Positions 5,082-29,642 of a DNA stretch of 33,370 nucleotides are shown here, piece after piece. The translations under genes were made by a program, and so were the position numbers. The notes beneath the pieces are model-generated. The model ran no database searches and was not told the DNA's origin. It saw nothing but the letters and a program-made list of their open reading frames with translations. The DNA is from Ignavibacteriales bacterium (lineage in GTDB: Bacteria; Bacteroidota; Ignavibacteria; UBA10030). The stretch lies in assembly GCA_016207415.1 (NCBI GenBank), contig JACQPT010000138.1:1-33370 (forward strand). Direction: 5' to 3'. The stretch's first letter is position 1; each line of letters starts with the position of its first letter.

Positions 5082-5082
5082 G

Positions 5083-9124: not shown

Positions 9125-9185
9125 TTCTGGAAAATCCTTTCTGAATCTCGGTAGATCGGCCTTAAGTCCGACCTACCGACAGTTA

Positions 9186-12320: not shown

Positions 12321-12341
12321 GTGTCGTTCTTTCTCGATAAA

Positions 12342-13667: not shown

Positions 13668-13679
13668 AAAGTGACTCCG

Positions 13680-14225: not shown

Positions 14226-14247
14226 TGTTGTGCTCTCCTCATTGGCT

Positions 14248-16149
14248 TCAGACAGCAACTCGTTGTTCGTAGTAGAACACTTCCATGGTCATCGCATCGG
14301 TCGGACAGCGGACTGCACAGAGGCCGCATCGAATGCAGGTTTCATCGTCCTTGATCATCGCCGAGGCGTGCTGAAAGGGGTCGATGTTGTACTGCTTGAG
14401 GAGTTTTGCTTTCGTTGCTTCGTCAAGGTCGAGTTCCGATAACGGCACAAGTTGGAGGCAGTATTCCGGACAGACATCGACACATCTGTTACACATGACG
14501 CATTTGTCCGCATCGTAAATCGTTTGAACGTGACAGGCAAGACACCTCTCCGCCTGGCGCCGGGCTTGTTCTTCGGTATATCCCACCTCAACTTCAGAAA
14601 TTCCCGTGCGACGGTTCAAGTCAATCGTCGGGGGCGCCTGGCGTTCAATTTGTTCGAAGCCGTTGGGCCTTGTGAACCTCACCGACGGGATTTTTTCTAT
14701 TGAAAGATTAAAGTAGGTCTGGGATTTCCTTCGTCGAAGAAATTCGTCGATTGAGAGTGCGGCGCGTTTGCCGTTTGCCACGGCATCAATGATGTTCCGC
14801 GGGCCAAACGCAGCATCGCCGCCAGCATACACACCTTCGGCAGTCGTGGAGAGCGTCGTCGGATCTACTTTGATGAGTTTTCCCGGCGTTAACTCGATAC
14901 CGTCAGACGAACGGATGAAGGAGAGGTCTGTCTGCTGGCCGATTGCCAGAATTATTGAATCGACGTGGAGTTTCTCGCTCAAGCTTCCATCATATTCCGG
15001 ATTGAACCGTCCGTTCTCATCGTACGTGCGCGTAACGCCGATGAATTCCACCCCTTGCACTTTTCCTTTTTGCCCGAAGAATCGTTTTGGGCCGCGCTGG
15101 GGATGAAAGATCACTCCCTCTTTCTTTGCCTCTTCAAATTCTTCGTGTCCCTGGGCAGTCCGAAGTACTGGCATTTCCTGAAAAGACTCGAGGCTTGCTA
15201 CATGGACTTCTTCAGCGCCTCTCCTCATTGCTGTTCGTGCAGCGTCCACAGCAGAATGGATGTCCCCTTCCTGAGGCTCTATTCCCCCACGCAAAGCTGT
15301 GCGAGCCGCATCAAACGCGACGAACCCTCCGCCGATGACAAGAACTTTCCTGCCAAGGTCAACCCGGTATCCGTTGTTGATGTTAATCAGATAGTCGATT
15401 GCTTTGACCACGCCGTCTAAGTCGGATCCTTCGATGCTCAGATCGCGTCCTTTTTGCGTTCCGACTGAAAGGAAGATTGCATCAAAGACCTCTTTCCGGA
15501 GATCCTTGAGGTTGAATTTTTCACTGAGAGGTTTGTTGAAGACGATTTCGACTCCCAAGGATTTGATCTTCTCAATTTCCTTGTCGATGAGTGAACGCAA
15601 GAGCCGATATTCGGGAATTCCATGTCGCAGCATTCCGCCCGCAACGTTCGTAGCTTCGAATACCGTCACGCTATAACCCATCAATGCCAGGTCATGCGCG
15701 CAAGATAAACCTGACGGCCCTGAACCCGCGACAGCGACCTTTTTATTCTTGGCAGTCTTCTTCTGTGATTCGATTTGCAGCGGCAGGTGCCACGGCCACT
15801 TGTTTCCCGGCTCGCCGCCACCTTGCAGGAGCTCGTTCTGCGCTTCGGGGTCGAGAGATTCAACACCGTATTTTTCCGTGACAAACCGTTTCAGAGCGCG
15901 AATGCTTACCGGCGCATCGATTTTTCCACGGCGACACCAGTCTTCACACGGCGCCGCACACACGCGGCCGCAAACGCTGGCAAAAGGGTTGGGCGAACGG
16001 GCTGTGAGGAAGGCCTCTTCATACTTCTGCTTAGCAATCAGCTGAACGTAGCGCCCCGCGTCCGTGTGAATCGGACAACCTATCTGGCAGGGCACGAGGT
16101 TTTTCCAAAACTCGATATCGGGAATCTTGATTTCGAAACTTGAAGGCAT
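14248..16149 (-). CDS. GltD-like FAD/Fe-S oxidoreductase with ferredoxin domains
   Basis: This 633-aa protein has the layout of glutamate-synthase small-subunit relatives. An N-terminal Cys-rich Fe-S domain (CQIGCP, CGRVCAAPCEDWC) leads into an FAD Rossmann fold (AGSGPSGLSCA). An NAD(P)-binding fold (VIGGGFVAFDAART) follows, with FAD closure at GVYAGGDAAFGP. C-terminal clusters CVMCNRCVDVC and CIRCGLCAVRC add two [4Fe-4S] sites. Such proteins move electrons between NAD(P)H and Fe-S partners. It has no membrane segment. It is the first gene of the nos/bc operon, suggesting an NAD(P)H- or ferredoxin-linked input. An internal DAARTAxR repeat (see findings) is unusual. The assigned substrate is inference. 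Confidence 0.9.
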   Translation of the reverse strand: MPSSFEIKIPDIEFWKNLVPCQIGCPIHTDAGRYVQLIAKQKYEEAFLTARSPNPFASVCGRVCAAPCEDWCRRGKIDAPVSIRALKRFVTEKYGVESLDPEAQNELLQGGGEPGNKWPWHLPLQIESQKKTAKNKKVAVAGSGPSGLSCAHDLALMGYSVTVFEATNVAGGMLRHGIPEYRLLRSLIDKEIEKIKSLGVEIVFNKPLSEKFNLKDLRKEVFDAIFLSVGTQKGRDLSIEGSDLDGVVKAIDYLININNGYRVDLGRKVLVIGGGFVAFDAARTALRGGIEPQEGDIHSAVDAARTAMRRGAEEVHVASLESFQEMPVLRTAQGHEEFEEAKKEGVIFHPQRGPKRFFGQKGKVQGVEFIGVTRTYDENGRFNPEYDGSLSEKLHVDSIILAIGQQTDLSFIRSSDGIELTPGKLIKVDPTTLSTTAEGVYAGGDAAFGPRNIIDAVANGKRAALSIDEFLRRRKSQTYFNLSIEKIPSVRFTRPNGFEQIERQAPPTIDLNRRTGISEVEVGYTEEQARRQAERCLACHVQTIYDADKCVMCNRCVDVCPEYCLQLVPLSELDLDEATKAKLLKQYNIDPFQHASAMIKDDETCIRCGLCAVRCPTDAMTMEVFYYEQRVAV

Positions 16150-16333: not shown

Positions 16334-16951
16334 TCAATCTTGGATCGAGGAGTGATTTTGGAGAATTTCGAAGTAGTCTCCGGGAGCGTTTATGTTTTTC
16401 AAAAGGAGTTCGCCGTCTTTGCCAAAATCCGCTTGCAGTGCGACGACTGTCGGACGGATTGACTTCAGAAATCGCTTGACGGAGTAATCGCCACGGGACA
16501 ACCAGGTCTGAATCTTAAACCGTAACTGAGTTCGAAACAAACCACATAATGGTTGAATATCCTCAGCGAAGGAAACAACTGTCGCTTCTCCTTGCGCACG
16601 CTCGACAACGTAATGAATCAGCTCTGCATTGACCAAGGGCAGATCGCACGGGACTACAAAGGCATAATCGGTGTTCGAATAACAGAGGCCCGCATGCATT
16701 CCACCTAGCGGCCCACAATCGAGGATGATGTCGGGAAAAACAGGAGCCCCGAGTTCTTCGTATTTCTTTTCACGACCCGAAACCACAATCACGTGAGGAA
16801 ATAACTCCTGAAGTAGATCGGCTAGTCGTTCGAGAAAGCTTTTGTCACCTAATGTGAGCAAAGCTTTGTCGCGACCCATGCGGGAGCTTCGCCCACCTGC
16901 AAGAATCACGCCCGTTGTGTTTTCGCATTTGATAGGGCACACTTTCGACAT
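16334..16951 (-). CDS. mobA: MobA-like molybdenum cofactor guanylyltransferase
   Basis: This protein of about 205 aa has the nucleotidyltransferase signature LAGGRSSRMGRDKA near the N-terminus, then a CGPLGGMHAGL segment and the CDLP motif (FVVPCDLPLV) near residue 100. MobA attaches GMP to molybdopterin, giving the bis-MGD cofactor needed by DMSO-reductase-family enzymes such as the NxrA-like protein upstream. The ATG at 16951 shares one base with the moaA stop (TAATG), which fixes the start. It is the last gene of the long molybdoenzyme array. A short Cys-containing N-terminal extension precedes the fold. Confidence 0.9.
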   Translation of the reverse strand: MSKVCPIKCENTTGVILAGGRSSRMGRDKALLTLGDKSFLERLADLLQELFPHVIVVSGREKKYEELGAPVFPDIILDCGPLGGMHAGLCYSNTDYAFVVPCDLPLVNAELIHYVVERAQGEATVVSFAEDIQPLCGLFRTQLRFKIQTWLSRGDYSVKRFLKSIRPTVVALQADFGKDGELLLKNINAPGDYFEILQNHSSIQD

Positions 16952-17937
16952 TACCCTCCGATGGCAACCATGGCACGATCTTGCAACTTCGCCAATTCGG
17001 CCGTGTCGGGATGGCCGCTCCATTTTGCTTTCACTTCAGATTGTATGACATCCTCAATTTCCTCTCGGCCAGCACCCGAGCGGAGGAGATTTTTCAAGTC
17101 CGCACCGTCACGTGCAAACAGGCAGTTGCGAATTTTTCCATCCGCGGTCAACCGCAAACGATTACAGTTTCTGCAGAAAGGCTTACTCATGGTTGTAATG
17201 AAACCAATGACGGCGTTGTTCTCCTGGACTTGGAATCGCACCGCAGTTTCCGGACCGTTCGGTGCCAGAGGCCGAAGTGTATACACAGTTTCAATGCGTT
17301 TCTTCATCTCGGCAAAGGAGATAAAAGCCGCGGAACTCCATCGATTACCGAGGAAGGGCATGTATTCAATGAAGCGTACATCAACGCTGCTGGTTCCCGC
17401 AAATTCCACAAAGTCCGGCAACTCATCATCGTTGAATCCCTTCATCACCACCACATTGATCTTGATAGCCTCGAATCCAGCATGTCGCGCCGTTTCAATT
17501 CCACGGACCACCGTCATTAAATGTGCGTGCTGTGTCACGAAAGTGAATTGTTCTTCCCTCAAGGAATCCAGGCTGATGTTTAATTGCTGGACTCCAGCTT
17601 CGCGAAGAACCTTCGCCTTGTCCGGAAGCAGCACACCATTTGTCGAAAGAGCGAGACAACGAAGAGCCGGTATATTCGAAAGACGTCTGCACAAGTCTTC
17701 AATCCTCTTCCGGACGAGTGGTTCTCCACCGGTCAGACGAATTTTCTCGACGCCCATGCCAACAAAGATATTCGAGATGAATTCAAACTCCTCAAACGAA
17801 AGGATTTCGGTTCTATCTCTCGATTCCGCAAAACCTTCTGGCATGCAATAACGGCATTGGAGATTGCATTTTCCCGTAACCGAGATTCGGAGATACGTTT
17901 GGTGACGGCCGAAGGAATCTACGAGCTTCGACATCAT
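16951..17937 (-). CDS. moaA: MoaA, GTP 3',8-cyclase
   Basis: MoaA catalyses the first step of molybdopterin synthesis. This protein of about 328 aa has the radical-SAM cluster CNLQCRYC (Cys 24, 28, 31) and the second Fe-S site CRNCNRLRL...RNC in the C-terminal part. The expected LTGGEPL and STNG segments are present. The last two residues are Gly-Gly, as required for MoaA activity. I chose the ATG at 17937 (or 17934) because AAAGGAAG lies directly upstream. It begins 7 nt after the CMD-like gene stop and is coupled to mobA, so the cofactor genes sit in the molybdoenzyme operon. Confidence 0.95.
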   Translation of the reverse strand: MMSKLVDSFGRHQTYLRISVTGKCNLQCRYCMPEGFAESRDRTEILSFEEFEFISNIFVGMGVEKIRLTGGEPLVRKRIEDLCRRLSNIPALRCLALSTNGVLLPDKAKVLREAGVQQLNISLDSLREEQFTFVTQHAHLMTVVRGIETARHAGFEAIKINVVVMKGFNDDELPDFVEFAGTSSVDVRFIEYMPFLGNRWSSAAFISFAEMKKRIETVYTLRPLAPNGPETAVRFQVQENNAVIGFITTMSKPFCRNCNRLRLTADGKIRNCLFARDGADLKNLLRSGAGREEIEDVIQSEVKAKWSGHPDTAELAKLQDRAMVAIGG

Positions 17938-17944
17938 GCTTCCT

Positions 17945-18265
17945 TTACTTTCTTTTTTTCCTCGTGATATCTTCAATCCATCCAAGAGCTGCCATCATTG
18001 ACGGAAATCCGATAGTAGGCAGGGAAAGTAACGCGACGTGCAAAAGTTCCTCGGCTGTGACTCCGGCTTTGAGAGGTTTACGCACGTGAGAATGGACAGC
18101 ACCTTCAAGGCGTGCTCCTACGGAGATGCCAACCTTTACTAGAGCGCGGGTTCACAGGTCGAGGGGACCAATTCTTTGCACTTCATCTCCTAATCTTTTG
18201 TAGGCTTGGGCAACCTCCGGAAAATCTTTGCCGAATTTTGTATATCGTTTTGGAATCTTCGACAT
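17945..18265 (-). pseudogene. Carboxymuconolactone decarboxylase-like gene with in-frame TGA
   Basis: From the ATG at 18265 the frame codes for MSKIPKRYTKFGKDFPE and continues to a TGA at 18152-18154. It then reads on in the same frame as TRALVKVGISVGARLEG, AVHSHVRKPLKAGV and HVALLSLPTIGFPSMMAA to a TAA at 17945. The total of about 106 residues matches the small AhpD-like CMD family, and both parts belong to one fold. The TGA falls where relatives have a basic residue, so a CGA-to-TGA change is the simplest explanation. The usual CxxC redox pair is absent (EGAVHSH), so selenocysteine is unlikely. It lies in the molybdoenzyme array just before moaA. Confidence 0.8.
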
Positions 18266-18318
18266 CTCAGAATTCTTTCGTGAGTAACACGTTCGTCTGG
18301 TAGTTGGATAAGATTTGA

Positions 18319-18696
18319 CTAGTTCTGGTTTACCGAGCCTTTTATTTGGCGGCACTGCGTGCAAAACAGTTCGGTCGGCTCTTGACACAGAACTTCATAC
18401 GGAATGTCCTCACCGCACGCTTGGCAAAAACCGAAAGCCCGATCTTTGAGACGAGCAAGAGCAAGAATGATCCAGCCAGCTTCAACATCGAGTTTCACAT
18501 GGATAACCTTCCCTGGCCCGCGAAACGGGATTTTAGAAATGCTCGACTTCAAAGGACGCCTACTGAATTCAGCGGCCATTTGCACATATTCCGCGTCGAC
18601 CTCACCATGCGTCGAGGCAAAGATTCGACAGAGTCTCTTTTCGAGTTTCCTTTTGAGGATTCTTTTTTCTTCGTCAGTCAACATTGTTGTTTGCAT
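18319..18696 (-). CDS. DksA/TraR-type zinc-finger protein
   Basis: This 125-aa protein has a C-terminal four-Cys zinc finger, FCQACGEDIPYEVLC followed by FCTQC, typical of the DksA/TraR family. The N-terminal half is helical and charged (LTDEEKRILKRKLEKR) but diverges from classical DksA, lacking the recognisable coiled-coil DxxDxA tip. Family members act on RNA polymerase or in stress responses. The family role is known but its target here is not. Start ATG 18696 or 18684 (MLTDEEK); neither has a strong ribosome site. It lies between the HEAT-repeat and CMD-like genes. Confidence 0.8.
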   Translation of the reverse strand: MQTTMLTDEEKRILKRKLEKRLCRIFASTHGEVDAEYVQMAAEFSRRPLKSSISKIPFRGPGKVIHVKLDVEAGWIILALARLKDRAFGFCQACGEDIPYEVLCQEPTELFCTQCRQIKGSVNQN

Positions 18697-18780
18697 TCAG
18701 TCGTGATCTTGGAAATCCGCTGGAACCGAGCAAGGTTTAACGGTGGAAGGACATCCGATGGCACGGTGGTCCATGGACCT

Positions 18781-19566
18781 TTACTTCGTGTATCCAAGCG
18801 CTTCTTCCGCTTCTTTTCTCACGACGTATGCCCTATCCCATTCGAACGCTTCGTCAACTCCAATAATACGTTTGCAGATTTTTTCGAGATGGACTTTTTC
18901 TTCTGAGCTAAGGTGGCCAAACTTAGCCAGTTTTCCCAGACTTCGTATTGCCTTCGCACGAATGCCGTGATTTGTATCAGCCAGATTCTTGTGCAACTTT
19001 TCCAGGAAGTCGCTTTTTACCTGACGAGGAAGTTGGTGCGGAGGGATAGATTCAACGAATTTGCCGATGGCCCTCGTCGCCGTGTCACGCAGTTCGACAT
19101 TACCGGATTCTGCAGCCTCGAGAGCACACTCAGCCGCCAGGATGACCTTTGGCGATTTGACTTTTCCGAGAGCATACAGAATAAAGGACCGCCTGGAAGA
19201 ATCCTCTGATGATTTGTATGCCGAAATCAAGGGCTCGATGGCATCAACTCCAATTCGACCAAGCGTCTGTGCGATGGCAATCTGCGATTTCAAATCCCCT
19301 TCATCGAGTTTTTCCAGAAGAATCGGAACAGACGACTTACCGAACCGCGCAACGAGATCAATAGCTTCTTCAACAACGGGCACCAATTCGGGCATGTCGA
19401 GCGGGTCAATGTAAAAGAGAGTCGAAATAACGTCAAGTAACCCGCGCGCACTCAAGCTTCGATTTTGAGCAAACTCTTTCTCCGACAACTTCAATCCTTG
19501 CCGAATTTCCTCAAAGTTTGTGCTTGCCAGCAGGGATTCAATTGTTGAGTTCGATTTGTCTGACAT
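18781..19566 (-). CDS. HEAT-repeat protein
   Basis: This protein of about 261 aa is built of helical repeats with the HEAT/PBS-lyase pattern, for example SQIAIAQTLGRIGVDAIEPL, RSFILYALGKVKSP, RDTATRAIGKFVES and IRAKAIRSLGKLAKFG. It has no catalytic motif, signal peptide or membrane segment, so it is probably a cytoplasmic scaffold. The ATG at 19566 follows GGGGAGG, 14 nt after the chaperone stop; an upstream ATG at 19608 would overlap it. Placement next to a TorD-like chaperone suggests it helps assemble the molybdoenzyme, but this is inferred from context only. Confidence 0.82.
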   Translation of the reverse strand: MSDKSNSTIESLLASTNFEEIRQGLKLSEKEFAQNRSLSARGLLDVISTLFYIDPLDMPELVPVVEEAIDLVARFGKSSVPILLEKLDEGDLKSQIAIAQTLGRIGVDAIEPLISAYKSSEDSSRRSFILYALGKVKSPKVILAAECALEAAESGNVELRDTATRAIGKFVESIPPHQLPRQVKSDFLEKLHKNLADTNHGIRAKAIRSLGKLAKFGHLSSEEKVHLEKICKRIIGVDEAFEWDRAYVVRKEAEEALGYTK

Positions 19567-19580
19567 AGTCAGCCTCCCCA

Positions 19581-20330
19581 CTATTTGTGTGTCATGCATG
19601 CGGAACAATCAAAGGGGTCGGGCTTCTTTTCGACATCTTTGTTCGGGCCCACAACTTCGTTCAGAGCGACATCGAGTCTTACAGCTTCGTCGTGCAATAA
19701 CAGTGTTGTCAGACGGCCCATTTCACGATAGAAATGATTGTCTGAGGAATTCATCAGGATCTTGACAAAAACCGCCGTCCAACGTCCAAGATGATCCCGG
19801 AGAAACTTGCGTTGCGTGTCAACACATATTTCCAGCTGATCCGCATTACCATTCTCGCGTGCGTAGGCTTCGTTCAATGCTAAAAACGACATGAACTCGA
19901 GCTCCGTACCGATGAAATCCACACGTTCCGTATTGTCATCGGCAACGTCCAATCCGTATGCATAATAAAAGCCGGCAATATCTGCCATTGCCTGCGTCTT
20001 CTGGAAGACGTTATCGTAACCGTATTCAGTTTCGTAGGGAGGACATTTTGCAGAGCCAAGGTGCGCAAACAAACGATTGTATTCGTACTCAAGGCGGTCA
20101 ACCGTGAGTCCTGCATCTGTGGGTGTGAGCATTGCAAGGACATCGCGAATTGCGCATGTTAGTTCTGAACTCAAAGCTTCATTTCTTAACAGGGCGTTTG
20201 AGTGCTGCTCTTGCGAAAGAAGCTTGATGTTTTCTTTGGACGGGTATTGAAATACCTTTGCCAGGACTCGATAGATCCGTGCTCTCACCTCAGCTGTTGT
20301 GGCCTCAATGCCCAGGGCTGTTGTATTCAT
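19581..20330 (-). CDS. TorD/DmsD-family molybdoenzyme chaperone
   Basis: This 249-aa helical protein has the TorD-fold pattern: an N-terminal R-x-x-x-Y-x-x-L-A-x-x-F block (RARIYRVLAKVFQYPS), LEYEYNRLFAH and the PPYETEYG motif near residue 100, then GTELEFMSFL. Such chaperones bind the Tat leader and guide cofactor insertion into DMSO-reductase-family enzymes. It follows the gamma-subunit gene by 10 nt and is therefore assigned to the NxrA-like enzyme. A C-terminal DCSACMTHK tail with two Cys is an extra feature that could bind metal. Start ATG 20330 follows AGGGA. Confidence 0.9.
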   Translation of the reverse strand: MNTTALGIEATTAEVRARIYRVLAKVFQYPSKENIKLLSQEQHSNALLRNEALSSELTCAIRDVLAMLTPTDAGLTVDRLEYEYNRLFAHLGSAKCPPYETEYGYDNVFQKTQAMADIAGFYYAYGLDVADDNTERVDFIGTELEFMSFLALNEAYARENGNADQLEICVDTQRKFLRDHLGRWTAVFVKILMNSSDNHFYREMGRLTTLLLHDEAVRLDVALNEVVGPNKDVEKKPDPFDCSACMTHK

Positions 20331-20340
20331 AGTCTGTCCC

Positions 20341-22065
20341 TCACTTTGCCTCTATCGAAAACTTATACCAGTTCGTTACCATTTTTTGGCCGTTTCGGTC
20401 TTGCAATGAGCCATCCCACACAGCGAACGAAACAGCGATGCTCATTCCTGACTTTAGGACCACATCGTTCCGATCGTTTGACGCAAGGGGCCTCACAAAC
20501 ACAACCGACCACTTGTCATCTTTCCAGATTCCTTTGCCCGACACGTTTTGCTCCGACGAACCTTGTGATGTTAGTGTGCCAAAGCCTCGTGCGTTAAGAT
20601 CTTCGACGGGAGAAACTCGCAATTGCGAGCTCAACGGATTCGCAGAAGCCCAACCCGCATTCCACGGCATCGAAATCTTGCTAGCGGAATCTTTGCTCAC
20701 GAAATACTCCATTCGGGAGCCGCCCGAGACATCAAAAAAGTAGAAATCAGCATCATTTCGAGGGAAAGCGTTGTCCACGCCGGCGTACTTCTTCAAGTCA
20801 GCTTCCCACCAGCTTTTCCATTGCCAGATATTGACTGCAAAATTCGTGTCGCCCATACCAAAGAACGGTTGACTTGCCGGGTCAAGAGGAAGTTGTATAG
20901 CAGCTGCGTCTCCGAACTTTCCTACATGCAGAGCCTGGTCATCCTGAGTAGCGTCTTCCCATTCTAAACGGAACGCCAGAGACTTCCCGTCGGTGACGCT
21001 CTTGACAGTAACACGATCTATTGGAGTGTCTCTTTGCCACAGTGAAATCAAAGCTAGCTCTTCGCTTTTTACGGCGTTCCATCCCTGGAAAGCCGGGTCA
21101 GCGAACTTTGCGATATCATCTGTTAACACGCTCTCGATTTTGTGGTCGGTCGTGGTGTACGAAATCTGAGATTTGCCCTTTGACAACGAAAGAACATAAT
21201 ACACAAGCGACCATCGGCGGTCGTCTGCAAGATTTTTCCTCTCAGCTAAAGTCATGTGATTCAGTTCTTCTTCTGATGGCCATTGCGAAATGAATTTTTT
21301 GAACTCCCCTACATCGTCGGAAGAATAATATCCTTCCAGATTCGTCAGGTCGCCAAAACTTTCGCGCCCCACTGCAAGTGCATCTTCCCCGTAACCTGGC
21401 ATCGGAGTTCCTCCGATTCCTGCGCTAAACGTACGATAAATATCCTGCGGTCTTCCACCTCCCTTGAAAGCCCCGGCCCTTGTGAAATTGTACGGAGGGA
21501 TTGGACGGCCGTCTTCATCCGCAAGGTTTTTTGAGGAGGGGCCGTCGCCTGTGCCGGTCGTCCCATGGCACATCCAGCAGCCGGCAAGGGCGAACACTGC
21601 TTTTCCTTTTCGAATCCTGTCAAGCGTTGATAAAGGTTCCTGTCCAACAACAAGAGGCTCGGGCGTAGTGTCTGTTTTGAACCTCTCAGAGAATGACTTA
21701 ACGTAGGCAACAAGATCTGTGCGCTCCTCAACAGACAAGACATCCCAGGCGGGCATTGCGGAACCCGGCATCCCGTTGCGAAGAGTCCGTTCGAGATCAT
21801 CGTCTGTTGGAAGAGAACCTGAAGGGGTTGATTGGAACTTGAAAACACCTCTACTGAAATCTCTGGGTTTTGGAAAAAGATACACTGCCGCTGTCCCCTC
21901 ACCTCTTCCGTCAACCCCATGACATGTGCTGCAGTATTTGAGATACAGCGATTTTCCGTTCTCGGCCGAACCCGAAATATCTTGGCCGGAGGTTGGCCAA
22001 ACTTGAAAACCCATCATCATCAGCCCAAAGATCACAACGGCGAAAACCAATAGGGATTTCATCAT
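20341..22065 (-). CDS. Dihaem c / ethylbenzene-dehydrogenase-type haem gamma subunit (NxrC-like)
   Basis: This protein of about 574 aa has a Sec signal peptide, two CxxCH motifs (CSTCHGVDG near residue 45 and CWMCHGT near residue 163) and a C-terminal half of the ethylbenzene-dehydrogenase haem-binding type (from about residue 310 to the end). EB_dh domains bind a b-type haem in gamma subunits of type II DMSO-reductase enzymes. Joining cytochrome c domains to it would let electrons leave or reach the beta-subunit clusters. It lies between beta subunit and chaperone. I chose ATG 22065 (22062 also possible) because GGGAGGAG is adjacent; an ATG at 22104 lacks such a site. Confidence 0.88.
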   Translation of the reverse strand: MMKSLLVFAVVIFGLMMMGFQVWPTSGQDISGSAENGKSLYLKYCSTCHGVDGRGEGTAAVYLFPKPRDFSRGVFKFQSTPSGSLPTDDDLERTLRNGMPGSAMPAWDVLSVEERTDLVAYVKSFSERFKTDTTPEPLVVGQEPLSTLDRIRKGKAVFALAGCWMCHGTTGTGDGPSSKNLADEDGRPIPPYNFTRAGAFKGGGRPQDIYRTFSAGIGGTPMPGYGEDALAVGRESFGDLTNLEGYYSSDDVGEFKKFISQWPSEEELNHMTLAERKNLADDRRWSLVYYVLSLSKGKSQISYTTTDHKIESVLTDDIAKFADPAFQGWNAVKSEELALISLWQRDTPIDRVTVKSVTDGKSLAFRLEWEDATQDDQALHVGKFGDAAAIQLPLDPASQPFFGMGDTNFAVNIWQWKSWWEADLKKYAGVDNAFPRNDADFYFFDVSGGSRMEYFVSKDSASKISMPWNAGWASANPLSSQLRVSPVEDLNARGFGTLTSQGSSEQNVSGKGIWKDDKWSVVFVRPLASNDRNDVVLKSGMSIAVSFAVWDGSLQDRNGQKMVTNWYKFSIEAK

Positions 22066-22137
22066 TTCTCCTCCCTTGGAATAATCATGTTCGTCGATCA
22101 CCATTATTGGGATGTGCTTTTCCTCGCTAACGGTTCC

Positions 22138-23310
22138 TTAAGTGACGTTGAAATGCTTTTCGGGCCGAACAATAACCGGATCGTCAATAGGAACGCGAAT
22201 GACCTCCTGTTTCTTTCTCCCGTAGCCAATGACCTCATCTCCGTCGACTTTGTAACTATAGATGAGTCTTTGTGTCGCTCCGAAAAGTTGGAGAACTCCG
22301 AGCAGTTCGTCCGTTGGGCTTGCATACTCCTTAATGGCGTAGTCAACACCCGGTCCGAACATCTGTTTCAAATATCCTCGCGGAGCCCACCGTGGCGGGA
22401 TGTAATAGATATTCGGCTCCGTGCCAAACTGCGGATATAAAGGAAGCGCAACTTTCGCTCTATGGACGAGATAGTGAACCGGGCTCTCCGGATCATCAAT
22501 CCATCCCTGCAACCGGATTTTGCCGACGCAAGCGGAAATACAGCGAGTCACCATTGGCTCTCCCTCAGTGAGCGGGTCGGAACCTTCCACTCGAGGATAA
22601 CAGGCAATGCATTTTTCGGAAATTCGCGTTTCAGGGTTAAACATCGGTTTCTTGTACGGACACTGCTCCACACATTTTCGATAACCTCGACACTGACCTT
22701 GGTCAATCAAAACAATTCCGTCTTCAGGGCGTTTGTAGATCGCTCCACGCGGACAGGCTGCAAGACATGCGGGATATGTGCAGTGATTGCAGATTCGCTG
22801 CAGATAGAAAAACCATGCCTTGTGCTCCGGGAGCTTCGTTCCGTCAGCAGTGCGGCCCTCTTTGGAGGCCAGCGTCGAGTAAGCAGTGTCTTCGTAGAAG
22901 TTTGGAGAGCGCCACTCCTTTTCCGTGGGAAGATAACCGAGAGCCTGCTCTCCGCTTGTGGCTGCCCTTTTCTTTGCCGCTTCGAAAAGTGTCTCACCGC
23001 GATAAACTCCGTATGGCTTTTCCGCATTTGCCATGGAGCCATCCCAGCCGGGTTGCGGACCAAGCAACTCCAAGGTTTTCACGTCCCAGCTTTGCGGATA
23101 TCCGCCGTAGGGCTTTGTTTCAACGTTATTCCACCACATGGATTCCTGTCCCTTGGAGTATGTCCACGTACTTTTACAGGCCATCGTGCACGTCTGGCAG
23201 GCGATGCAGCGGTTGATGTTGAACACGGCCGCGAACTGTCTTGTTGGCCTCTTGCCTTCGTAGGGATATTCCATTTCACGGCCAAGTTGCCAGTTGTATA
23301 CTCTAGGCAT
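22138..23310 (-). CDS. nxrB: NxrB-like Fe-S beta subunit
   Basis: This 390-aa protein carries the four Fe-S clusters of the NarH/NxrB family. Cys groups are CIACQTCTMAC near residue 35, CNHCTYPACLAAC, CRGYRKCVEQC and CIACY...RCISAC. CRGYRKC, with Tyr in place of one Cys, marks the [3Fe-4S] site. The N-terminus, VYNWQLGREMEYPYEGKRP with NVETKPYGGYP, closely matches what I remember of nitrite oxidoreductase beta subunits of Nitrospira-type bacteria rather than NarH. It has no leader and is presumably exported with the alpha subunit. Start ATG 23310 follows AAAGGAG. The assignment to the Nxr-type group is recognition without an alignment. Confidence 0.9.
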   Translation of the reverse strand: MPRVYNWQLGREMEYPYEGKRPTRQFAAVFNINRCIACQTCTMACKSTWTYSKGQESMWWNNVETKPYGGYPQSWDVKTLELLGPQPGWDGSMANAEKPYGVYRGETLFEAAKKRAATSGEQALGYLPTEKEWRSPNFYEDTAYSTLASKEGRTADGTKLPEHKAWFFYLQRICNHCTYPACLAACPRGAIYKRPEDGIVLIDQGQCRGYRKCVEQCPYKKPMFNPETRISEKCIACYPRVEGSDPLTEGEPMVTRCISACVGKIRLQGWIDDPESPVHYLVHRAKVALPLYPQFGTEPNIYYIPPRWAPRGYLKQMFGPGVDYAIKEYASPTDELLGVLQLFGATQRLIYSYKVDGDEVIGYGRKKQEVIRVPIDDPVIVRPEKHFNVT

Positions 23311-23325
23311 AGGGTTTCTCCTTTC

Positions 23326-23586
23326 CTATTCGGGCTTGCTCCAAACGCTCTCAACCAGGTCTCGAACATACTCTTCCCCCCGCTCCTTGAAAGCGTAATA
23401 AGGGCCAGCATAGAACGGATTCCGAAACGCCGCGAGAATTTTCTCATTCGACCAGTGCATCCGTTTCAGCTCGATGACAAAAGTCTCTGCCATCTCAGCC
23501 ACGTGATCCCTGCCTTCTTCACCTGGAACAACAACATGGGTCAATTCGAAGTCCGTTGGGTTTTGCGAATCATCAGGTTCAGCCAT
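23326..23586 (-). CDS. Small unknown protein between alpha and beta subunits
   Basis: This 86-aa acidic, helical protein has no signal peptide, no membrane segment and no Cys. It contains THVVVPGEEGRDHVAEM, HWSNEKILAAF and the aromatic FYAGPYYAFKERGE segment. Its ATG overlaps the alpha-subunit stop by 8 nt, has AAAGGA upstream, and it ends 15 nt before the beta subunit, so it is almost certainly translated with them. I do not recognise the family. Position suggests a small structural or assembly subunit of the enzyme; the Kuenenia NXR complex is known to have a small tubule-forming subunit, but likeness to it is untested. Confidence 0.8.
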   Translation of the reverse strand: MAEPDDSQNPTDFELTHVVVPGEEGRDHVAEMAETFVIELKRMHWSNEKILAAFRNPFYAGPYYAFKERGEEYVRDLVESVWSKPE

Positions 23587-26500
23587 TGGAATTTCCTTTC
23601 TCCAGGAATTCTCCGGCGAGATATTTCTTCATGGCGTCATTTTCATTCGCCGGCGTCAATTCGGTTTTTATCGGATCCCATACACCTTTGCCGTTCATCC
23701 CGCCATCTTCTGCCTTTGTTATCCGAACGAGAGTTTCTTTTGGACACGTATTGGGCGAGTTGGTATCCTCCTCATAGCCTTCGCCTATGTGTTGCCCTAT
23801 AACATCTTTTCTTACGAGCGAATCAGTCATCATCGTTGGCTGAAGCCATCCGCGGGTGATGCTCTGCTGCGAGCCGTACCGGAAGCTGGCTTGATATCCC
23901 GTGTCTTCGGAAACAGCTTTTCCATCTTCGCGAGTCTCGTGCGCCTTCACCGACTTGGGAGTTGCCATGAATGCGGAATGTTTCATCATTGTCACACCAC
24001 GCGGATACGCGGGATTATATTTGACCCGTAGCATTAATCTGGCAACCTTGTAAAAAGGATCATCGGGATTCCAACCTCTGTACGGACGGTCGGCAGGGTT
24101 TGCATCGACGTAGACATAGTCGCCGTCATTGATCCCAAGTTCTTTTGCGTCCTCAGGATTCATATTGATCTGGTGTTCACCGACGCCGGGCATTCGTCTG
24201 TCCATTCGATAAGGATCGCCGAAGTTGTTGCTCCAGATAAAGTTCCAATCCGTCACTGCCCAAGAAGAGTGATTGGTATGTCGGGACTTTGGCGTGAGAC
24301 ACCAGAATCGATATCCCTGTTCCCAGAGGAAGCTTCGTGTCTGCTTTACTTTCTTCCAAGACATTTTGACGTTGTTGACCGAGCGCTCATCTGCTCCCGG
24401 ATGGTTCAGAGGAAGACCATAGTTTTGAGGCCGGATGGCAGAATGGGAGGCAACGATGACATTGGGAAGGTACGGCGTCGCTTCAACAGGCTCCCGGTGA
24501 ACAATGAGGTTCTCGCCATATTCTATGAATTCGTCCTCCTCGCGGTAAAACTCAATTCGGCCCGTTTTGTTGTAGAAGGGTTTTGATTCGTGAATCTGTT
24601 CCCACCCCGGGATGCGAGGATACGTTCGGAACATCATCAGAGCCGCCGCGTCTTTCTTGAGCAGATCGTCGATCTTGTATCCGCTTGTCGTTGTCCCTGC
24701 ATCAAGGACTCGCTGCAAGTAAACTTCCGATTTCCCTTCCAGAATGAATTTGAAGAAATCTCGATAACGTTTGTCTCCCGTGATATCGGAAAGTTTCTCC
24801 GCTGCACCCGCCATGATGAGGGCATCGTTGCGATTGTCGAAAATCGGCTTCACTCCACCTTTCCAGGCCTGTAGGAATGGATTCGAGCATGATGCCGTCA
24901 TGTCGGGAAATGTCAGCTCTGCCCAACACTCCGCGGGAAAAACCAAATCAGCAAACTCACAACTTCCCGTCCATTCCATCTCGTTAACGCAGATCATTTC
25001 GACTTTGGAGTCGACATTCTTTGCCATGTTGTACGCCCATTTGGCGTTGTTCAGTAAGTTCACATTGGCTGTCCATTCGACTTTAGTCGGGGTTGGCATG
25101 TGAGACTTTCCGGTGAAGACTTTTCGTCCGCCCTTCGTTTCAACAATAAGCGGTAGATCTTCATAGTTCCAGTAGCATGGATTCTCAGGCTTGTAGTATT
25201 TCTTGTTCTTGACATCTAGTCCATGTGTGTTCGGCTCGAGATTCATGTTGAAAGGATCTTCAGCGTTGAACTTTGGCAGTCCGTCGAACACGCAGAATTT
25301 GTAATTCCCAGCCCAATGTCCAACACCTGAACCGGGTTTGCCTATGTTCCCGGTCAAGGCCATCCACAGGAATGTTCCTCTTGTTGTGATGTCGCAATGG
25401 AAATAGTGATTTACACCTTCGCCGGTGTGAACCGCTGCAGGTTTGATCCCCGCGAGATCCTTCGCGAGCCGGACGATGAGCTCTTTCGGAGCGCCGGTAA
25501 TCTCGTGCGTTGTGTTCAGGTCATATTCAGCACAAAGCTCTTTATACAATTGAAATACGGTTTTAACGTTGATTTGCTTTCCCTTTGTGTCCCTCACCGT
25601 GAAGCTTCGCTCAAGCGCTGGATCAATTCCCTTTTCGTCCACATATTTTCCAACATCCTCTCTTGTCACGGCAACAGGCTTCTTTGATTTAGAATCCCAG
25701 AGGACAAAGTCTCCCCACCGCTGTCGCGCTTCGACGTCGATTTTCTGAACTTTTATGCTGTAGCCTTTCAATTCCTGGTTCTTGTAACCTTTGAAAATAT
25801 CCGAGGCACGAAGAAGCTTCAATGTGTCCATTCGGACCAGGAGCGGCATGTCCGTAAACCGTTTAACAAAAGGCGCGTCGTATAGCTTTTCTTTAAACAA
25901 CACGTTTGTGACGCCAAGCTGTAAAGCCGGATCTGTTCCCGGGCGGATGGGAATCCAATAATCGGCTTTTTGTGAAGACGGACTGTACTCGGGAGCTATG
26001 ACAACAATCTTTCCGCCGCGCTCCATTGTTTCAATCCACCAGTGCGCGTCCGACATTTTGTTTTCAACGAAGTTTACACCCTGAATAATGAACAGTCTTG
26101 CATGCCGGAAATTGTTATGGTCGTCGTCGTGCGTTTGAATGCCAGTGACCATTGGATGCCCCGGCGGTAAGTCGCCGTGCCAGTCGTAGTTTGTCCACGA
26201 ACGCGCGCCGTACGGATCCCTGTGATGTTTTCTTGCTTGTTCCTCATCATGTAAGGCAAGCATGTTGGCAAAACGCTTCAGGGCTTGGATCCGAAGAACC
26301 CCGTGCAGCGACATACCAGGCCTGATCTTCACGACTTGTCCCCCGCTCCCGTGCATTGCTTCGATCATTTCTTCCGGATAGCCCTGCATCCTCAGTTTTT
26401 TCCCGCCTTCATCGCCCGCGTATTTGTTCATCACATGCAGCAAGCCTTTTGCCGCATACGTGGAGATCTCATCCCAGTTAACTTTAAGCCAGCCGTCTTC

Positions 26501-26995
26501 GCCGCGCTTGAAATATTTCTTATCGGCAGAGCCTTTCGCATCCGTTGGAAACCCGGAGTCGGCCCATTCCTTCCAGCCTTTGCGAATCATCGGATACTTC
26601 ACCCGGTAAGGCCCGTACATGCGTCGGACATATGTGAAACCTTTCAAGCAACCACGAGGATTCCAGGAGGGGGGAATGCTATTGCCATAGATGTCAGTGA
26701 CAGCCGTTGCATCGTAATTCTGCTCTATGTGAACGACGATACCGTTGCGAACAAATGCTCGAAGTCTGCAATTGTGTGTATCATTTGGAGCGCAAACATA
26801 CGTGAACGTGCGGTCGTAACGATATTGATCTCGATAGACCTTTTCCCAATCTCGGTTCGGATAGTAAGCGAGAGGATTGTCGACCTGGCGGACAAACTGA
26901 AGCAAATCGAGGTTAAGGAGGCTATTCAGCGCAGCAGCTCCAACGATTCCTTTGCCGGTTGTGTTGAGAAAATCGCGACGGTTCAGCTTTTGCAT
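23579..26995 (-). CDS. nxrA: NxrA-like type II molybdoenzyme alpha subunit (Tat-exported)
   Basis: This catalytic subunit of about 1138 aa begins with a Tat leader (NRRDFLN near residue 5). The first Fe-S site reads C68-x3-D72-x3-C76 with a last Cys at 116, the Asp-containing form seen in Nxr-type enzymes, whereas NarG uses His and three Cys. The bis-MGD molybdenum ligand is expected to be D275 in HGDLPPGHP, aligned with the NarG Asp in CDLPP. Later blocks (GEGVNHYFH, TGNIGKPG, NEMEWTGSCEFADLVFPAE) are typical of the family. ATG 26995 is preceded by AAGGAGG. It reduces nitrate or oxidises nitrite in the periplasm; which of these cannot be told from sequence. Confidence 0.9.
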   Translation of the reverse strand: MQKLNRRDFLNTTGKGIVGAAALNSLLNLDLLQFVRQVDNPLAYYPNRDWEKVYRDQYRYDRTFTYVCAPNDTHNCRLRAFVRNGIVVHIEQNYDATAVTDIYGNSIPPSWNPRGCLKGFTYVRRMYGPYRVKYPMIRKGWKEWADSGFPTDAKGSADKKYFKRGEDGWLKVNWDEISTYAAKGLLHVMNKYAGDEGGKKLRMQGYPEEMIEAMHGSGGQVVKIRPGMSLHGVLRIQALKRFANMLALHDEEQARKHHRDPYGARSWTNYDWHGDLPPGHPMVTGIQTHDDDHNNFRHARLFIIQGVNFVENKMSDAHWWIETMERGGKIVVIAPEYSPSSQKADYWIPIRPGTDPALQLGVTNVLFKEKLYDAPFVKRFTDMPLLVRMDTLKLLRASDIFKGYKNQELKGYSIKVQKIDVEARQRWGDFVLWDSKSKKPVAVTREDVGKYVDEKGIDPALERSFTVRDTKGKQINVKTVFQLYKELCAEYDLNTTHEITGAPKELIVRLAKDLAGIKPAAVHTGEGVNHYFHCDITTRGTFLWMALTGNIGKPGSGVGHWAGNYKFCVFDGLPKFNAEDPFNMNLEPNTHGLDVKNKKYYKPENPCYWNYEDLPLIVETKGGRKVFTGKSHMPTPTKVEWTANVNLLNNAKWAYNMAKNVDSKVEMICVNEMEWTGSCEFADLVFPAECWAELTFPDMTASCSNPFLQAWKGGVKPIFDNRNDALIMAGAAEKLSDITGDKRYRDFFKFILEGKSEVYLQRVLDAGTTTSGYKIDDLLKKDAAALMMFRTYPRIPGWEQIHESKPFYNKTGRIEFYREEDEFIEYGENLIVHREPVEATPYLPNVIVASHSAIRPQNYGLPLNHPGADERSVNNVKMSWKKVKQTRSFLWEQGYRFWCLTPKSRHTNHSSWAVTDWNFIWSNNFGDPYRMDRRMPGVGEHQINMNPEDAKELGINDGDYVYVDANPADRPYRGWNPDDPFYKVARLMLRVKYNPAYPRGVTMMKHSAFMATPKSVKAHETREDGKAVSEDTGYQASFRYGSQQSITRGWLQPTMMTDSLVRKDVIGQHIGEGYEEDTNSPNTCPKETLVRITKAEDGGMNGKGVWDPIKTELTPANENDAMKKYLAGEFLEKGNSNG

Positions 26996-27069
26996 GGCGG
27001 GCCTCCTTCTTTTCGCTTTTTGAAGGAAATATTTCAACAGACAACGGCCGCGAAACCGCTGAAGGAACA

Positions 27070-27516
27070 TCAGACGGTCAGTCGTGCGATAAGATCCAAC
27101 TTGGGGTCAAGTTCTTTTCCTAGTACGGCCAGTGTCTTCTCATTCAATATGTTCAACACGATTTCTTTTGCTCGCTTCCATTGCGCGTGTACCGGGCATG
27201 GATTCTTGTCTCCGCAGCCGGGAAAACCGAGGATGCAGTCGTCAAGGAATTTATCCCCATCGATTGCACGAACGATTTCGATCAGTTTTATTTCTTTGGG
27301 CGACCTGGCCAGCGAGAAACCGCCATTGGCGCCTTTGAGAGAAACCACAACCCCGCTTCGTGAGAGTGTCTGAAGAACCTTGCTAAGGAAATGGTGCGGA
27401 ATGTTGAGACTTTCGGATATGTCTCGGAGAAGCAGATACTCGTCTTTGGGCTGCTGGGCAAGAAAAAGCGATGCTTGGAGTGCGTATTCGCAGGACTTGC
27501 TAAAGATGAGAGACAC
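27070..27516 (-). CDS. Rrf2-family Fe-S transcriptional regulator 1
   Basis: This protein of about 148 aa has the Rrf2 winged-helix core (SCEYALQASLFLA, DISESLNIPHHFLSKVLQTL, SLKGANGGFSLAR). Its C-terminal cluster loop has Cys spaced C-x6-C-x5-C (CILGFPGCGDKNPC) followed by VH. IscR and NsrR use similar Cys trios to hold an Fe-S cluster that senses Fe-S status or NO. It is the first gene before the molybdoenzyme operon, 74 nt upstream, so it likely controls it. I chose GTG at 27516 because the TTG at 27549 lies inside the -10 box of the promoter. No strong ribosome site precedes GTG. Confidence 0.85.
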   Translation of the reverse strand: MSLIFSKSCEYALQASLFLAQQPKDEYLLLRDISESLNIPHHFLSKVLQTLSRSGVVVSLKGANGGFSLARSPKEIKLIEIVRAIDGDKFLDDCILGFPGCGDKNPCPVHAQWKRAKEIVLNILNEKTLAVLGKELDPKLDLIARLTV

Positions 27517-27518
27517 AG

Positions 27519-27534
27519 TATTTAGATATTTAGA
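27519..27534. promoter_or_regulatory. Direct repeat at the transcription start, likely operator
   Basis: TATTTAGA occurs twice in tandem (TATTTAGATATTTAGA) between the expected transcription start and the GTG start codon of the Rrf2 gene. This AT-rich repeat is a natural candidate for autoregulatory binding by the Rrf2 protein. Repression from this site would act on the whole molybdoenzyme array. Confidence 0.45.
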
Positions 27535-27547
27535 CCTGTTTGTCCAC

Positions 27548-27576
27548 AATATAGAAATTCATCGCTATCCTGTCAA
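27548..27576 (-). promoter_or_regulatory. Near-consensus sigma70 promoter for the rrf2-molybdoenzyme array
   Basis: On the minus strand, TTGACA (27571-27576) and TATATT (27548-27553) are separated by exactly 17 bp. Transcription would begin near 27541. It lies directly before the Rrf2 regulator and heads the whole downstream array. Confidence 0.85.
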
Positions 27577-27621: not shown

Positions 27622-28413
27622 TTATGCCGACACCCGTGCAACAACGACAAGATCCTTTGATTCGGGCGATTGATACTCTTGAAGTGCAATACTTCCATAA
27701 GACTGAACTCCTGTGAATCCGGCTTTTTCGAGTAGCCCGATAAGCTCCTGGTGAAGCCACGGCCGGATCGGAACAGTGAGCAGTCTTCCGTTTGATTTTG
27801 GTGATGACCTGTCAAGAGTCTGCACGTTGAAAAGGATTCGGCGGTCCCGATATTCGTACGACCTGATGAATGTTTTCGATGTCGTAACTTTTTTGCTTTG
27901 CAGTTGTTCCCTTTCAGCAAGGATGCGGTCGTAGTTGAGGTTTTGAATAAGCAAGACACCGTCTTCCTTCAACAAACGGAGAAAATTCTTGAGAACCACC
28001 AGCATGCTCTGCTCTGTGAGCACATGAGCAAGAGAGTTTCCCATGCACAACACAAGATCACATTTCTCTGTAACGACATCGGGCAGATTCTCGAAGCTCC
28101 CAACAAGTGCCTTGACTTTGAGTCTCATGTCCGCCGCATGTTGTTGCAGGTGTTTCACCATCTCCTCCGAAGCATCAACGGCAGTCGTTTTAACGCCAAG
28201 CTGCGTCAGCAGCAGGGTATGGAAACCAGTCCCGCTTCCTGCATCTAATGCCGTCGACATCTTGTATCTGTCAACAAGCATGTGGAAATACGGCTTTTCG
28301 CGGATGAACCTTCCGTCAAAATCCGTCATGAGATCGTAGTCCTCAGCGAGCGCGTCATAAAAACCTGCGACTGTCTGATCATCGATCCCGGCGTACTTAG
28401 TCATGAGGTCCAT
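27622..28413 (-). CDS. Class I SAM-dependent methyltransferase
   Basis: This protein of about 263 aa has methyltransferase motif I LDAGSGTGFHTLLL near residue 63, an acidic residue after beta-2 (AVDASEEM), and a motif IV-like CDLVLCMGNSLAH. The rest of the fold is complete. The substrate is unknown. Two starts are possible, ATG 28413 (GAGGGAG 11 nt upstream) and ATG 28404. The gene overlaps the polyferredoxin stop by 17 nt, so it is coupled to it. No link to nitrogen-oxide metabolism is visible beyond position. Confidence 0.8.
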   Translation of the reverse strand: MDLMTKYAGIDDQTVAGFYDALAEDYDLMTDFDGRFIREKPYFHMLVDRYKMSTALDAGSGTGFHTLLLTQLGVKTTAVDASEEMVKHLQQHAADMRLKVKALVGSFENLPDVVTEKCDLVLCMGNSLAHVLTEQSMLVVLKNFLRLLKEDGVLLIQNLNYDRILAEREQLQSKKVTTSKTFIRSYEYRDRRILFNVQTLDRSSPKSNGRLLTVPIRPWLHQELIGLLEKAGFTGVQSYGSIALQEYQSPESKDLVVVARVSA

Positions 28414-29605
28414 AGTCGGGTACACTCCCTCGATTGTGTTGATACGCCGGCGAGTCCAATTGCTGAAACCGGCGTTGATATTCTTCTTTGCCGATTTCGT
28501 TTTGCCATTTTCCAGCCAACATCGCGAGGCCTGTGATTGCCACAAAGGTGCCTGCGACCAAGCCTCCAAAAACCCAGGATGGAACCGGACGCATGTTCTT
28601 CGACACTTTCATGTTCAGCGTATCCTTCACCGGACACACTTCAACGCACGCGAAGCAGCTCATACATTCGTCGCTCCACACCCGCCCAACCTTGTGCACC
28701 CTGATGTTCGCGGGGCATGCTCGAGTGCACAGCTCGCAATCAACGCATGTGGATTTGTTTCTCGTGATTTTCAAAGGACTGAGGAAACTCAGAAACCCCA
28801 ACAACGCTCCGTAGGGACACAGATACCGGCACCAGAAATTCTTTATGACAACAGACAGCGCCACGAAAATCAGGATCGTCCATAAAGCAAATGAATCGAT
28901 GTTAGCAAAGAACAAATACATCTTGATGTCGGCAACCTTGTTGTAGGGACTGTAAATGAACGTTTTAAGTGCTGTGACGTCCATTTGAAGAATTACGGAT
29001 ACGAAGAAGAGAAGCAGGAGATACTTCAGAGAACGAAGGGGATAATCGAGCCAGCGATTCACAGTGAGATTCTTTTTGAAGATTCGCTTTCCCAGGATCC
29101 ACAAAGATTCGCTCAACGTGCCAATCGGACACAACCAGCTGCAGAATGCCTTCTTGAGGAACAATCCTGTCGCGACAATTGCCAGAAGAATGAACAAGCC
29201 GGACGGATGCACGCCGTTGATGATGCCCGTTTCCAACCAATACTTGAGGCTTATCAAAGCACTGATCGGGAGGAAGCCTTCCACTCCGGGTGGGCGCTCG
29301 AAAAAAGGTTCGCTCCCGTTCGAGACTCCCCACTTCACAAAGAGGTGAAATTCCACGCCAATCCAAATGACGAGCAGCAGGAACGCAAATTGAACGACCG
29401 TTCTGAGGAACTGTGGATCATCTTTTAGTCTTACAATGAGCTTCTGATACCATGTCCTTTGCGCTGGAAACCCAAGTCGCACGCGTCGACGTTCGGGAGG
29501 AATCTTTTTTATTCTCGGCTTCGACACCGACCTGCTTCGGTGGGCGTCCGACCATCCCTTATCAGAGAAGTGTACGATGATCTCCTGTTCAGCGACTAGA
29601 CTCAT
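28397..29605 (-). CDS. NapH/CcoG-like membrane polyferredoxin
   Basis: This protein of about 402 aa has around six membrane helices, two membrane-flanking FCSWLCPIGTL and WCRYLCPYGAL motifs and a cytoplasmic double [4Fe-4S] region (CVDCELCTRACP, CMSCFACVEVCP). This is the NapH/NosR-C-terminal/CcoG type that moves electrons between quinol and Fe-S partners or helps build copper/haem centres. A long basic N-terminal segment (KPRIKKIPPERRRVR) precedes helix 1. I chose ATG 29605; the longer frame would start with TTG at 29635. It follows the second Rrf2 gene by 37 nt and could supply electrons for the nos or nitrate system, which is inference. Confidence 0.87.
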   Translation of the reverse strand: MSLVAEQEIIVHFSDKGWSDAHRSRSVSKPRIKKIPPERRRVRLGFPAQRTWYQKLIVRLKDDPQFLRTVVQFAFLLLVIWIGVEFHLFVKWGVSNGSEPFFERPPGVEGFLPISALISLKYWLETGIINGVHPSGLFILLAIVATGLFLKKAFCSWLCPIGTLSESLWILGKRIFKKNLTVNRWLDYPLRSLKYLLLLFFVSVILQMDVTALKTFIYSPYNKVADIKMYLFFANIDSFALWTILIFVALSVVIKNFWCRYLCPYGALLGFLSFLSPLKITRNKSTCVDCELCTRACPANIRVHKVGRVWSDECMSCFACVEVCPVKDTLNMKVSKNMRPVPSWVFGGLVAGTFVAITGLAMLAGKWQNEIGKEEYQRRFQQLDSPAYQHNRGSVPDYGPHD

Positions 29606-29642
29606 ATCAGATAATTTGCTCCGAAATAACCGCAAAAATTTT

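Follow-up and report, generated by a model that had tools for sequence, protein, structure and literature searches.

The nxr module and its gene order

We analyzed a contig of 33,370 nucleotides from an Ignavibacteriales bacterium (JACQPT010000138.1, hereafter the window), which is the whole contig C77 of the metagenome-assembled genome (MAG) G000 (2.79 Mb, 89% complete) and which carries the genes of a nitrite oxidoreductase (NXR)-type molybdoenzyme together with genes for N2O reduction (nos). A run of minus-strand genes extends from about 30.1 to 4.3 kb, and within this run the NXR module is flanked on both sides by nos-cluster genes. The gene order is Rrf2b, NosR/NapH-like, methyltransferase, Rrf2a, nxrA, an open reading frame (ORF) of 86 amino acids (aa), nxrB, nxrC, TorD-like, HEAT, DksA-like, moaA and mobA, continuing with GltD-like, Rieske, cytochrome b, cytochrome c, nosZ and further nos genes. 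The features of the NXR module are:

27070..27549, minus strand: Rrf2a, Rrf2-family [Fe-S] regulator with the cysteines CX6CX5C, heading the NXR module (NCBIfam rrf2_super, 116 bits)
23579..26995, minus strand: nxrA, molybdenum catalytic subunit (alpha) with a Tat leader (1425 bits to 7b04_B; trees; ligands)
23326..23586, minus strand: 86-aa ORF that overlaps the 3' end of nxrA (conserved at this position; four predicted helices)
22138..23310, minus strand: nxrB, four-cluster Fe-S subunit (beta) without leader (586 bits to 7b04_A; beta tree)
20341..22104, likely start 22062, minus strand: nxrC (gamma), long type with a Sec-type leader (diheme cytochrome c plus heme-b domain)
19581..20330, minus strand: TorD/NarJ-like chaperone (TIGR03482, 84 bits; PF02613)
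18781..19608, minus strand: HEAT-repeat protein (PF13646)
18319..18696, minus strand: DksA-like C4 zinc-finger protein (weak match to NF033459, 33 bits)
16951..17985, minus strand: moaA, molybdenum cofactor (TIGR02666, 361 bits, above cut-off)
16334..17023, minus strand: mobA-like guanylyltransferase (TIGR02665, 115 bits)

All the genes named in an initial annotation of this region were recovered on the minus strand inside 16334-27576, and the identities of the TorD-like, HEAT, MoaA, MobA and Rrf2 proteins were borne out by hidden Markov models (HMMs), that of the DksA-like zinc finger weakly. The annotation had overlooked the conserved 86-aa ORF between nxrA and nxrB (23326-23586). Its start for nxrA also needs revision: position 27070 is only the opening of the ORF, and a start at 26995 is very probable (AAGGAGG followed by an ATG, and a Tat motif).

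Phylogenetic position and subunit features

The alpha and beta subunits had been assigned to the periplasmic NXR group rather than to cytoplasmic NarGH, and we ran the tree check proposed with that claim, using an alpha tree of 40 rows, a beta tree of 29 rows and a second alpha tree of 26 rows with bootstraps. The three trees agree. Both subunits grouped with anammox, Nitrospinota and Chloroflexota NXR, and the support for joining them to the proven NXR of anammox bacteria, away from NarG, Pcr and Ebd, was 91-100; NarG, PcrA and EbdA were remote. The window enzyme clustered with up to four Ignavibacteria/Bacteroidota MAGs in the alpha and beta trees. Two Chloroflexota MAGs fell in the same group in the alpha trees (99/99); of these two, the one included in the beta tree branched next, with weaker support. 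Its sister (100/100; alpha support 98-100) was a clade that comprised anammox bacteria, Nitrospinota, Elusimicrobia, Schekmanbacteria, Actinomycetota and other Chloroflexota. Outside these two groups fell G179 and a gene from a plasmid of the archaeon Natronococcus occultus. Overall, these trees support the window enzyme as a deep sister lineage of the anammox-containing NXR clade. The expected placement inside or next to the NXR clade thus held as a position next to it and not as nesting inside, in trees sampled without Nitrospira and DdhA sequences, in which the node relative to Nitrospira is therefore not placed.

Only 7 of the 391 genomes of the class, from scattered families, contained an alpha of the NXR clade (8 matches, including a PcrA-like one), and this scattered occurrence fits horizontal transfer. 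The nearest named NxrA relatives came from Ignavibacteriales and Bacteroidetes MAGs, two of them from groundwater. On the Natronococcus occultus plasmid (L081, 5995-10409), an alpha of the NXR clade (40%) is accompanied by beta and TorD, and no gamma is listed; this alpha has no annotated gene, and its N-terminal part lies in another frame. In a Nitrospinota MAG (L056, 10699-13129), two PCP_red (protochlorophyllide reductase C-terminal) genes directly follow nxrC, and one of these domains is fused to a radical-SAM/SPASM protein. A scan of viral contigs for Nitrospira-like NxrA yielded a single sequence, an N-terminal NxrA fragment (51%; L128, 166-561) that lies terminally on a 28-kb IMG/VR contig beside apparent phage genes, possibly a chimera.

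Comparison with solved structures agreed with the trees. The best match of alpha was NXR-A of Kuenenia (7b04_B, 1425 bits; 54% identity), followed by PcrA (237 bits), EbdA (172 bits) and NarG (about 160 bits), and that of beta was 7b04_A (586 bits), with EbdB as runner-up (233 bits). The Kuenenia NXR was thus the closest solved homologue for alpha, beta and the C-terminal half of gamma. In the alpha subunit we observed the FS0 residues C93, N96, D97, C101 and C141 and the Mo ligand D300 (ORF numbering), aligned with Kuenenia residues, among them C67, N70, D71 and D275 (PMC8387239). The FS0 cluster, in the site CAPNDTHNC, is therefore held by three Cys and one Asp, and the substrate Asn and the Mo Asp are kept. 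By eye, a Tat motif (NRRDFL) follows the ribosome-binding site at 26995, and beta starts with VYNWQLGR, without leader (start sequence VYNWQLGREMEYPYE). The Tat leader, the FS0 Asp and the beta start on which the initial annotation relied are all present in the sequence. NarG-type features were absent from alpha, which lacked both a placement with NarG and the FS0 His ligand, and the partner gamma is not NarI; the narG model of NCBIfam gave 176 bits against a cut-off of 1084.

The top NCBIfam match for alpha was the type II DMSO reductase model TIGR03479 (386 bits, far under its cut-off of 985). Like other enzymes of this superfamily, to which it belongs, the window enzyme could act on another oxyanion or substrate such as chlorate, selenate or a hydrocarbon. 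However, the trees and the structure matches set alpha apart from PcrA and EbdA and the complete NXR ligand set is kept, and we consider such a substrate improbable.

A difference from the anammox enzymes was found at the Mo site. The loop YDWHGDLPPGHP of the window alpha has YDW and DLPP in common with NarG (YDWYCDLPPASP), unlike anammox NXR (YTWHGDQAPGHPF). In the window lineage, YDW and not YTW stands ahead of the Mo-ligand Asp, and the residues after this Asp are LPPGH in the window lineage and G179, nearly so in Natronococcus, and QAPG(H/F) in the sister clade. The DLPP letters are a lead on the reaction direction and not a proof of it, because DLPP could be the ancestral state. Between G000 and its congener G001, synonymous sites of the nxr genes were saturated, and the ratio of nonsynonymous to synonymous substitution rates (dN/dS) therefore says no more than that the nxr proteins are conserved.

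The gamma subunit, encoded by the sole gamma gene of the operon, is composite. Its C-terminal half matches 7b04_C (NXR-C, 125 bits) and its N-terminal half the anammox diheme cytochrome 6h5l_B (197 bits), so that a diheme cytochrome c (CxxCH at 58 and 176) is fused to a heme-b (EB_dh) domain. The heme-b ligands Met417 and Lys574 are kept, and the protein is not of the NarI type. This long NxrC is about 29-39% identical over its full length to proteins of anammox, Nitrospinota, Elusimicrobia and Schekmanbacteria loci.

In each of the 12 non-anammox loci of the clade that were examined, which span several phyla, a homologue of the 86-aa ORF (20-64% identity) occupied the same position; the anammox, G179 and Natronococcus loci tested gave none. 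It had no Pfam match, its predicted model consists of four helices and is largely confident, and a fold search against the PDB returned nothing significant. It is a candidate for an unrecognised NXR accessory protein.

By contrast, the HEAT and DksA-like genes had no homologue in any other nxr locus fetched, which makes them local additions and not core NXR parts; seen at the window locus alone, they were rejected as NXR components. We also rejected the DksA-like protein as the "zinc finger" of the Nitrospina and anammox NXR sets (PMC3578206), as no homologue occurred in the anammox loci fetched. In the gap between the DksA-like gene and moaA, a minus-strand frame at about 17945-18265 looks by eye carboxymuconolactone-decarboxylase/AhpD-like, with one in-frame TGA.

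Placement in the nos cluster and regulation

The enzyme operon had been described as adjacent to a nos operon. The nos genes do adjoin the NXR module, on both sides of it and not on one. They are:

29643-30083, minus strand: Rrf2b, in the upstream nos half (27622..30083; Pfam; same order in the G307 nos cluster)
28397-29635, minus strand: NosR/NapH-like 4Fe-4S membrane protein, upstream nos half (Pfam; G307 order)
27622-28569, minus strand: methyltransferase, upstream nos half (Pfam; G307 order)
14248..16149, minus strand: GltD-like flavin/Fe-S oxidoreductase of the nos cluster (Pfam; remnant in the G001 scar)
13680-14258, minus strand: Rieske protein, part of the quinol:cytochrome c type complex of the nos cluster (11106..14258)
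12342-13667, minus strand: cytochrome b of the same complex
11106-12320, minus strand: multiheme cytochrome c of the same complex
9186-11048, minus strand: nosZ (nos_propeller, 125 bits)
within 4251..11048 (with nosZ), minus strand: downstream nos genes nosD, nosF, nosL-like and nosY (related nos genes in G108 and L061)

Genome G307, of the same order, possesses an uninterrupted nos cluster (Rrf2b, NosR-like, methyltransferase, COX1-like fragment, DUF6448, GltD-like, Rieske, cytochrome b, cytochrome c, nosZ) and has its own nxr genes on a separate contig. In the window, the NXR module fills the interval from the methyltransferase to the GltD-like gene. Since both flanks belong to one nos cluster in G307, the module lies inside the nos cluster and not merely beside it. 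No GC step was observed at the module (0.485-0.51 throughout), and a recent foreign origin is thus not shown.

The congener G001 (97% complete) shares the left flank and nxrA-B-C-torD with the window; behind them stands a 101-bp remnant of GltD, and two bases further on the distal part of nosY follows (L034, 17438-18074; G001:C165). The window genome was searched family by family, and the gene absences given here and below hold within the limits of MAGs; no nosZ is left in the G001 genome. The gltD/nosY scar and the genome without nosZ indicate that G001 lost nos and retained NXR, barring a mis-assembly of the contig at the junction. The nosY remnant looks as constrained as the nxr genes and so does not date this loss.

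Proximity of nxr and nos recurs in lineages whose NxrA belongs to other branches than that of the window. In G108, of the same class, Rrf2a-like, moaA, nxrC and nxrA are divergent from a related nos cluster (L133, G108:C280, 1-18144, where the nos cluster stands back to back with the Rrf2-moaA-nxrC-nxrA module), and in the Dehalococcoidia genome FeB_14, nxr and nos are also neighbours. The G108 NxrA has a Cys (PNC) in place of the FS0 Asp of other NXRs. The open-licence papers searched contained no report of the nos insertion, the scar, the repeated nxr-nos neighbourhood or the small ORF.

With NXR and nos in one array here and as neighbours in these two further lineages, nitrite and N2O could be converted to nitrate and N2, directly coupled in the periplasm via the NxrC hemes and the nos-linked cytochromes. 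This couple is strongly exergonic by textbook potentials. However, both half reactions would be periplasmic and offer no obvious proton-motive force, so that the coupling would not obviously conserve energy, and G001 and G320 have NXR but no nosZ. We regard such a coupling as extremely unlikely.

Several lineages also carry stand-alone membrane proteins with weak COX1 matches next to nxr or nos genes (L061, 7317-8663; L035, 14303-15841; L132, 8199-8669), and another such COX1-like protein, recognized by eye, has no Pfam match (L055, 6166-7611). In G320 the nxr operon is broken by COX1-like, FG-GAP/UnbV, weakly NqrB/RnfD-like and, by eye, isochorismatase-like proteins (L035, 14303-21297).

Concerning regulation, an Rrf2a-type regulator precedes nxr in four genomes (the window genome, G001, G320 and G108) and, in the family member G004, a NarGH operon (grouping support 87/96, in a split that also includes some distant rows). 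The best sigma70-like promoter match in the 16.8-kb stretch (TTGACA-17-TATATT, 27576-27548) lies just before the Rrf2a gene, and the overall number of such sites in the stretch was not above chance.

Proposed function and comparison with known systems

The initial annotation left open whether the enzyme reduces nitrate or oxidises nitrite. That caution holds, and the gene context leans to nitrate reduction: nxr genes located inside an N2O-removal cluster suggest a role mainly as nitrate reductase in N-oxide breathing. We therefore propose that the locus probably encodes a soluble, periplasmic enzyme of NXR type that can run both ways but serves mainly to reduce nitrate with electrons from cytochrome c. 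The TorD-like protein would help NxrA to fold and to load Mo-bisMGD, Tat would export NxrA with NxrB hitch-hiking, and Sec would export NxrC. Where the Fe-S chain ends, the heme b of NxrC would accept or donate electrons, and the fused diheme cytochrome c would link this heme to periplasmic cytochromes. With the module placed in the nos cluster and apparently under a nitrate-reductase-type Rrf2 regulator, electrons would pass from quinol to the Rieske/cytochrome b complex, which would conserve energy, then to cytochrome c, NxrC-B-A and nitrate. N2O reductase would be a second acceptor of the same cytochrome system and nitrite the end product, making the host a putative partial denitrifier that also breathes N2O and O2.

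In favour of this proposal we count the reversible Kuenenia homologue, the exclusion of NarG, PcrA and EbdA by both trees, the nos flanks, the nxr-nos neighbourhoods in two other lineages, the retention of nxr in G001 after its loss of nos, the Rrf2 type shared with NarGH, the missing NarG and RuBisCO, and the Mo-loop letters shared with NarG. Gene content of the host genus (G000 and G001) bears on this proposal. No NarG was found in either genome, and NarG is present in several members of the host family. Likewise, no convincing gene was found in G000 or G001 for NirS (weak matches read as beta-propeller repeats), NirK (matches to the cupredoxin end of NosZ) or NrfA (weak matches in G000). 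Each of the two genomes has one aa3-type oxidase and a cytochrome bd oxidase, and the contig with the aa3 gene also bears a second cytochrome b gene. RuBisCO was absent from 7 of the 7 genomes searched, with a working control.

Several points weigh against nitrate reduction as the main role. According to a study of Nitrospinota, sequence alone cannot decide the direction of NXR (PMC10839748), and direction is not readable from phylogeny either (PMC10839748; PMC9306079). The Mo-loop letters may be a mere ancestral state, as G179 has DLPPGH too and Natronococcus nearly so. No nitrite reductase was found in the host genus, and its aa3-type oxidase could take electrons from nitrite. A location in nos DNA need not mean a shared pathway, and the NXR of the sister species G001 appears to manage without the nos-linked cytochrome complex.

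Enzymes of this class work in both directions (PMC8387239), which makes nitrite oxidation with O2 the most serious competing explanation: the enzyme would be the NXR of an unrecognised non-autotrophic or mixotrophic nitrite oxidiser, with electrons passing from periplasmic nitrite to NxrC, cytochrome c and the aa3-type oxidase. Membership of the NXR clade, the kept catalytic features, the aa3-type oxidase, whose gene shares a contig with one for cytochrome b, and the missing nitrite reductases all agree with this explanation, and non-autotrophic nitrite oxidation has been proposed for similar MAGs (PMC9306079; PMC4821891). By contrast, the position of the module inside the nos cluster and under a NarG-type Rrf2, the NarG carried by relatives, and the lack of RuBisCO speak against it; a search for ATP-citrate lyase was uninformative, its control being without signal. 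We consider nitrite oxidation a possible but less likely function than nitrate reduction.

A broader and rather doubtful idea is that NXR-clade enzymes were recruited in at least two independent lineages, in or beside nos, into a joint N-oxide respiration unit, whose shared cytochromes would serve nitrate/nitrite conversion and N2O reduction, and possibly nitrite oxidation with N2O, with the 86-aa protein as a new accessory part of non-anammox NXR.

These considerations matter since nxrA and nxrB serve as marker genes for nitrite oxidation. As Ignavibacteria that reduce N2O and are apparently non-autotrophic carry a deep NXR lineage, embedded in a nos cluster, nxr markers could be miscounted as nitrification. 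The lineage also offers a natural setting for asking what decides between nitrite oxidation and nitrate reduction by NXR, for which the change from DQAP to DLPP or back at the Mo site and the fusion of gamma to a diheme cytochrome are candidates open to experiment.

Among known systems, the window enzyme most resembles NXR-ABC of Kuenenia stuttgartiensis (PDB 7b04, kustd1700/1703/1704), with which it shares full-length alpha and beta subunits, the FS0 Asp, the Mo Asp, the heme-b Met/Lys and a soluble, non-NarI gamma. The Kuenenia enzyme works in both directions, its Vmax being much higher when it reduces nitrate with viologen as donor (PMC8387239). The window differs from it in its long diheme-fused gamma, its gene order A-x-B-C-D, its Mo-loop DLPP in place of DQAP, and the 86-aa ORF, whose homologue was found in none of the anammox loci tested. 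The alternative NxrC of Nitrospina and anammox bacteria (PMC3578206) also combines a diheme cytochrome c with a heme-b domain; in the window, however, the long gamma is the only gamma gene of the operon. The periplasmic Nxr-like enzymes of the uncultured heterotrophs Chloroflexi CFX1/CFX9 and Armatimonadetes, compared by description, are likewise of the NXR clade in MAGs reported as non-autotrophic, with no autotrophy shown and the direction given as unknown, and the available parts of their descriptions mention no nos insertion (PMC9306079; PMC4821891). Finally, the periplasmic NXR-NAR enzymes of Nitrotoga and Hydrogenobacter are reported as a separate sister clade in which nitrate reducers occur together with a nitrite oxidiser, and the gamma of Nitrotoga is soluble (PMC6050957); they too were compared by description, and the nearest stand-ins for them here were G179 (44% alpha identity) and Natronococcus (40%).

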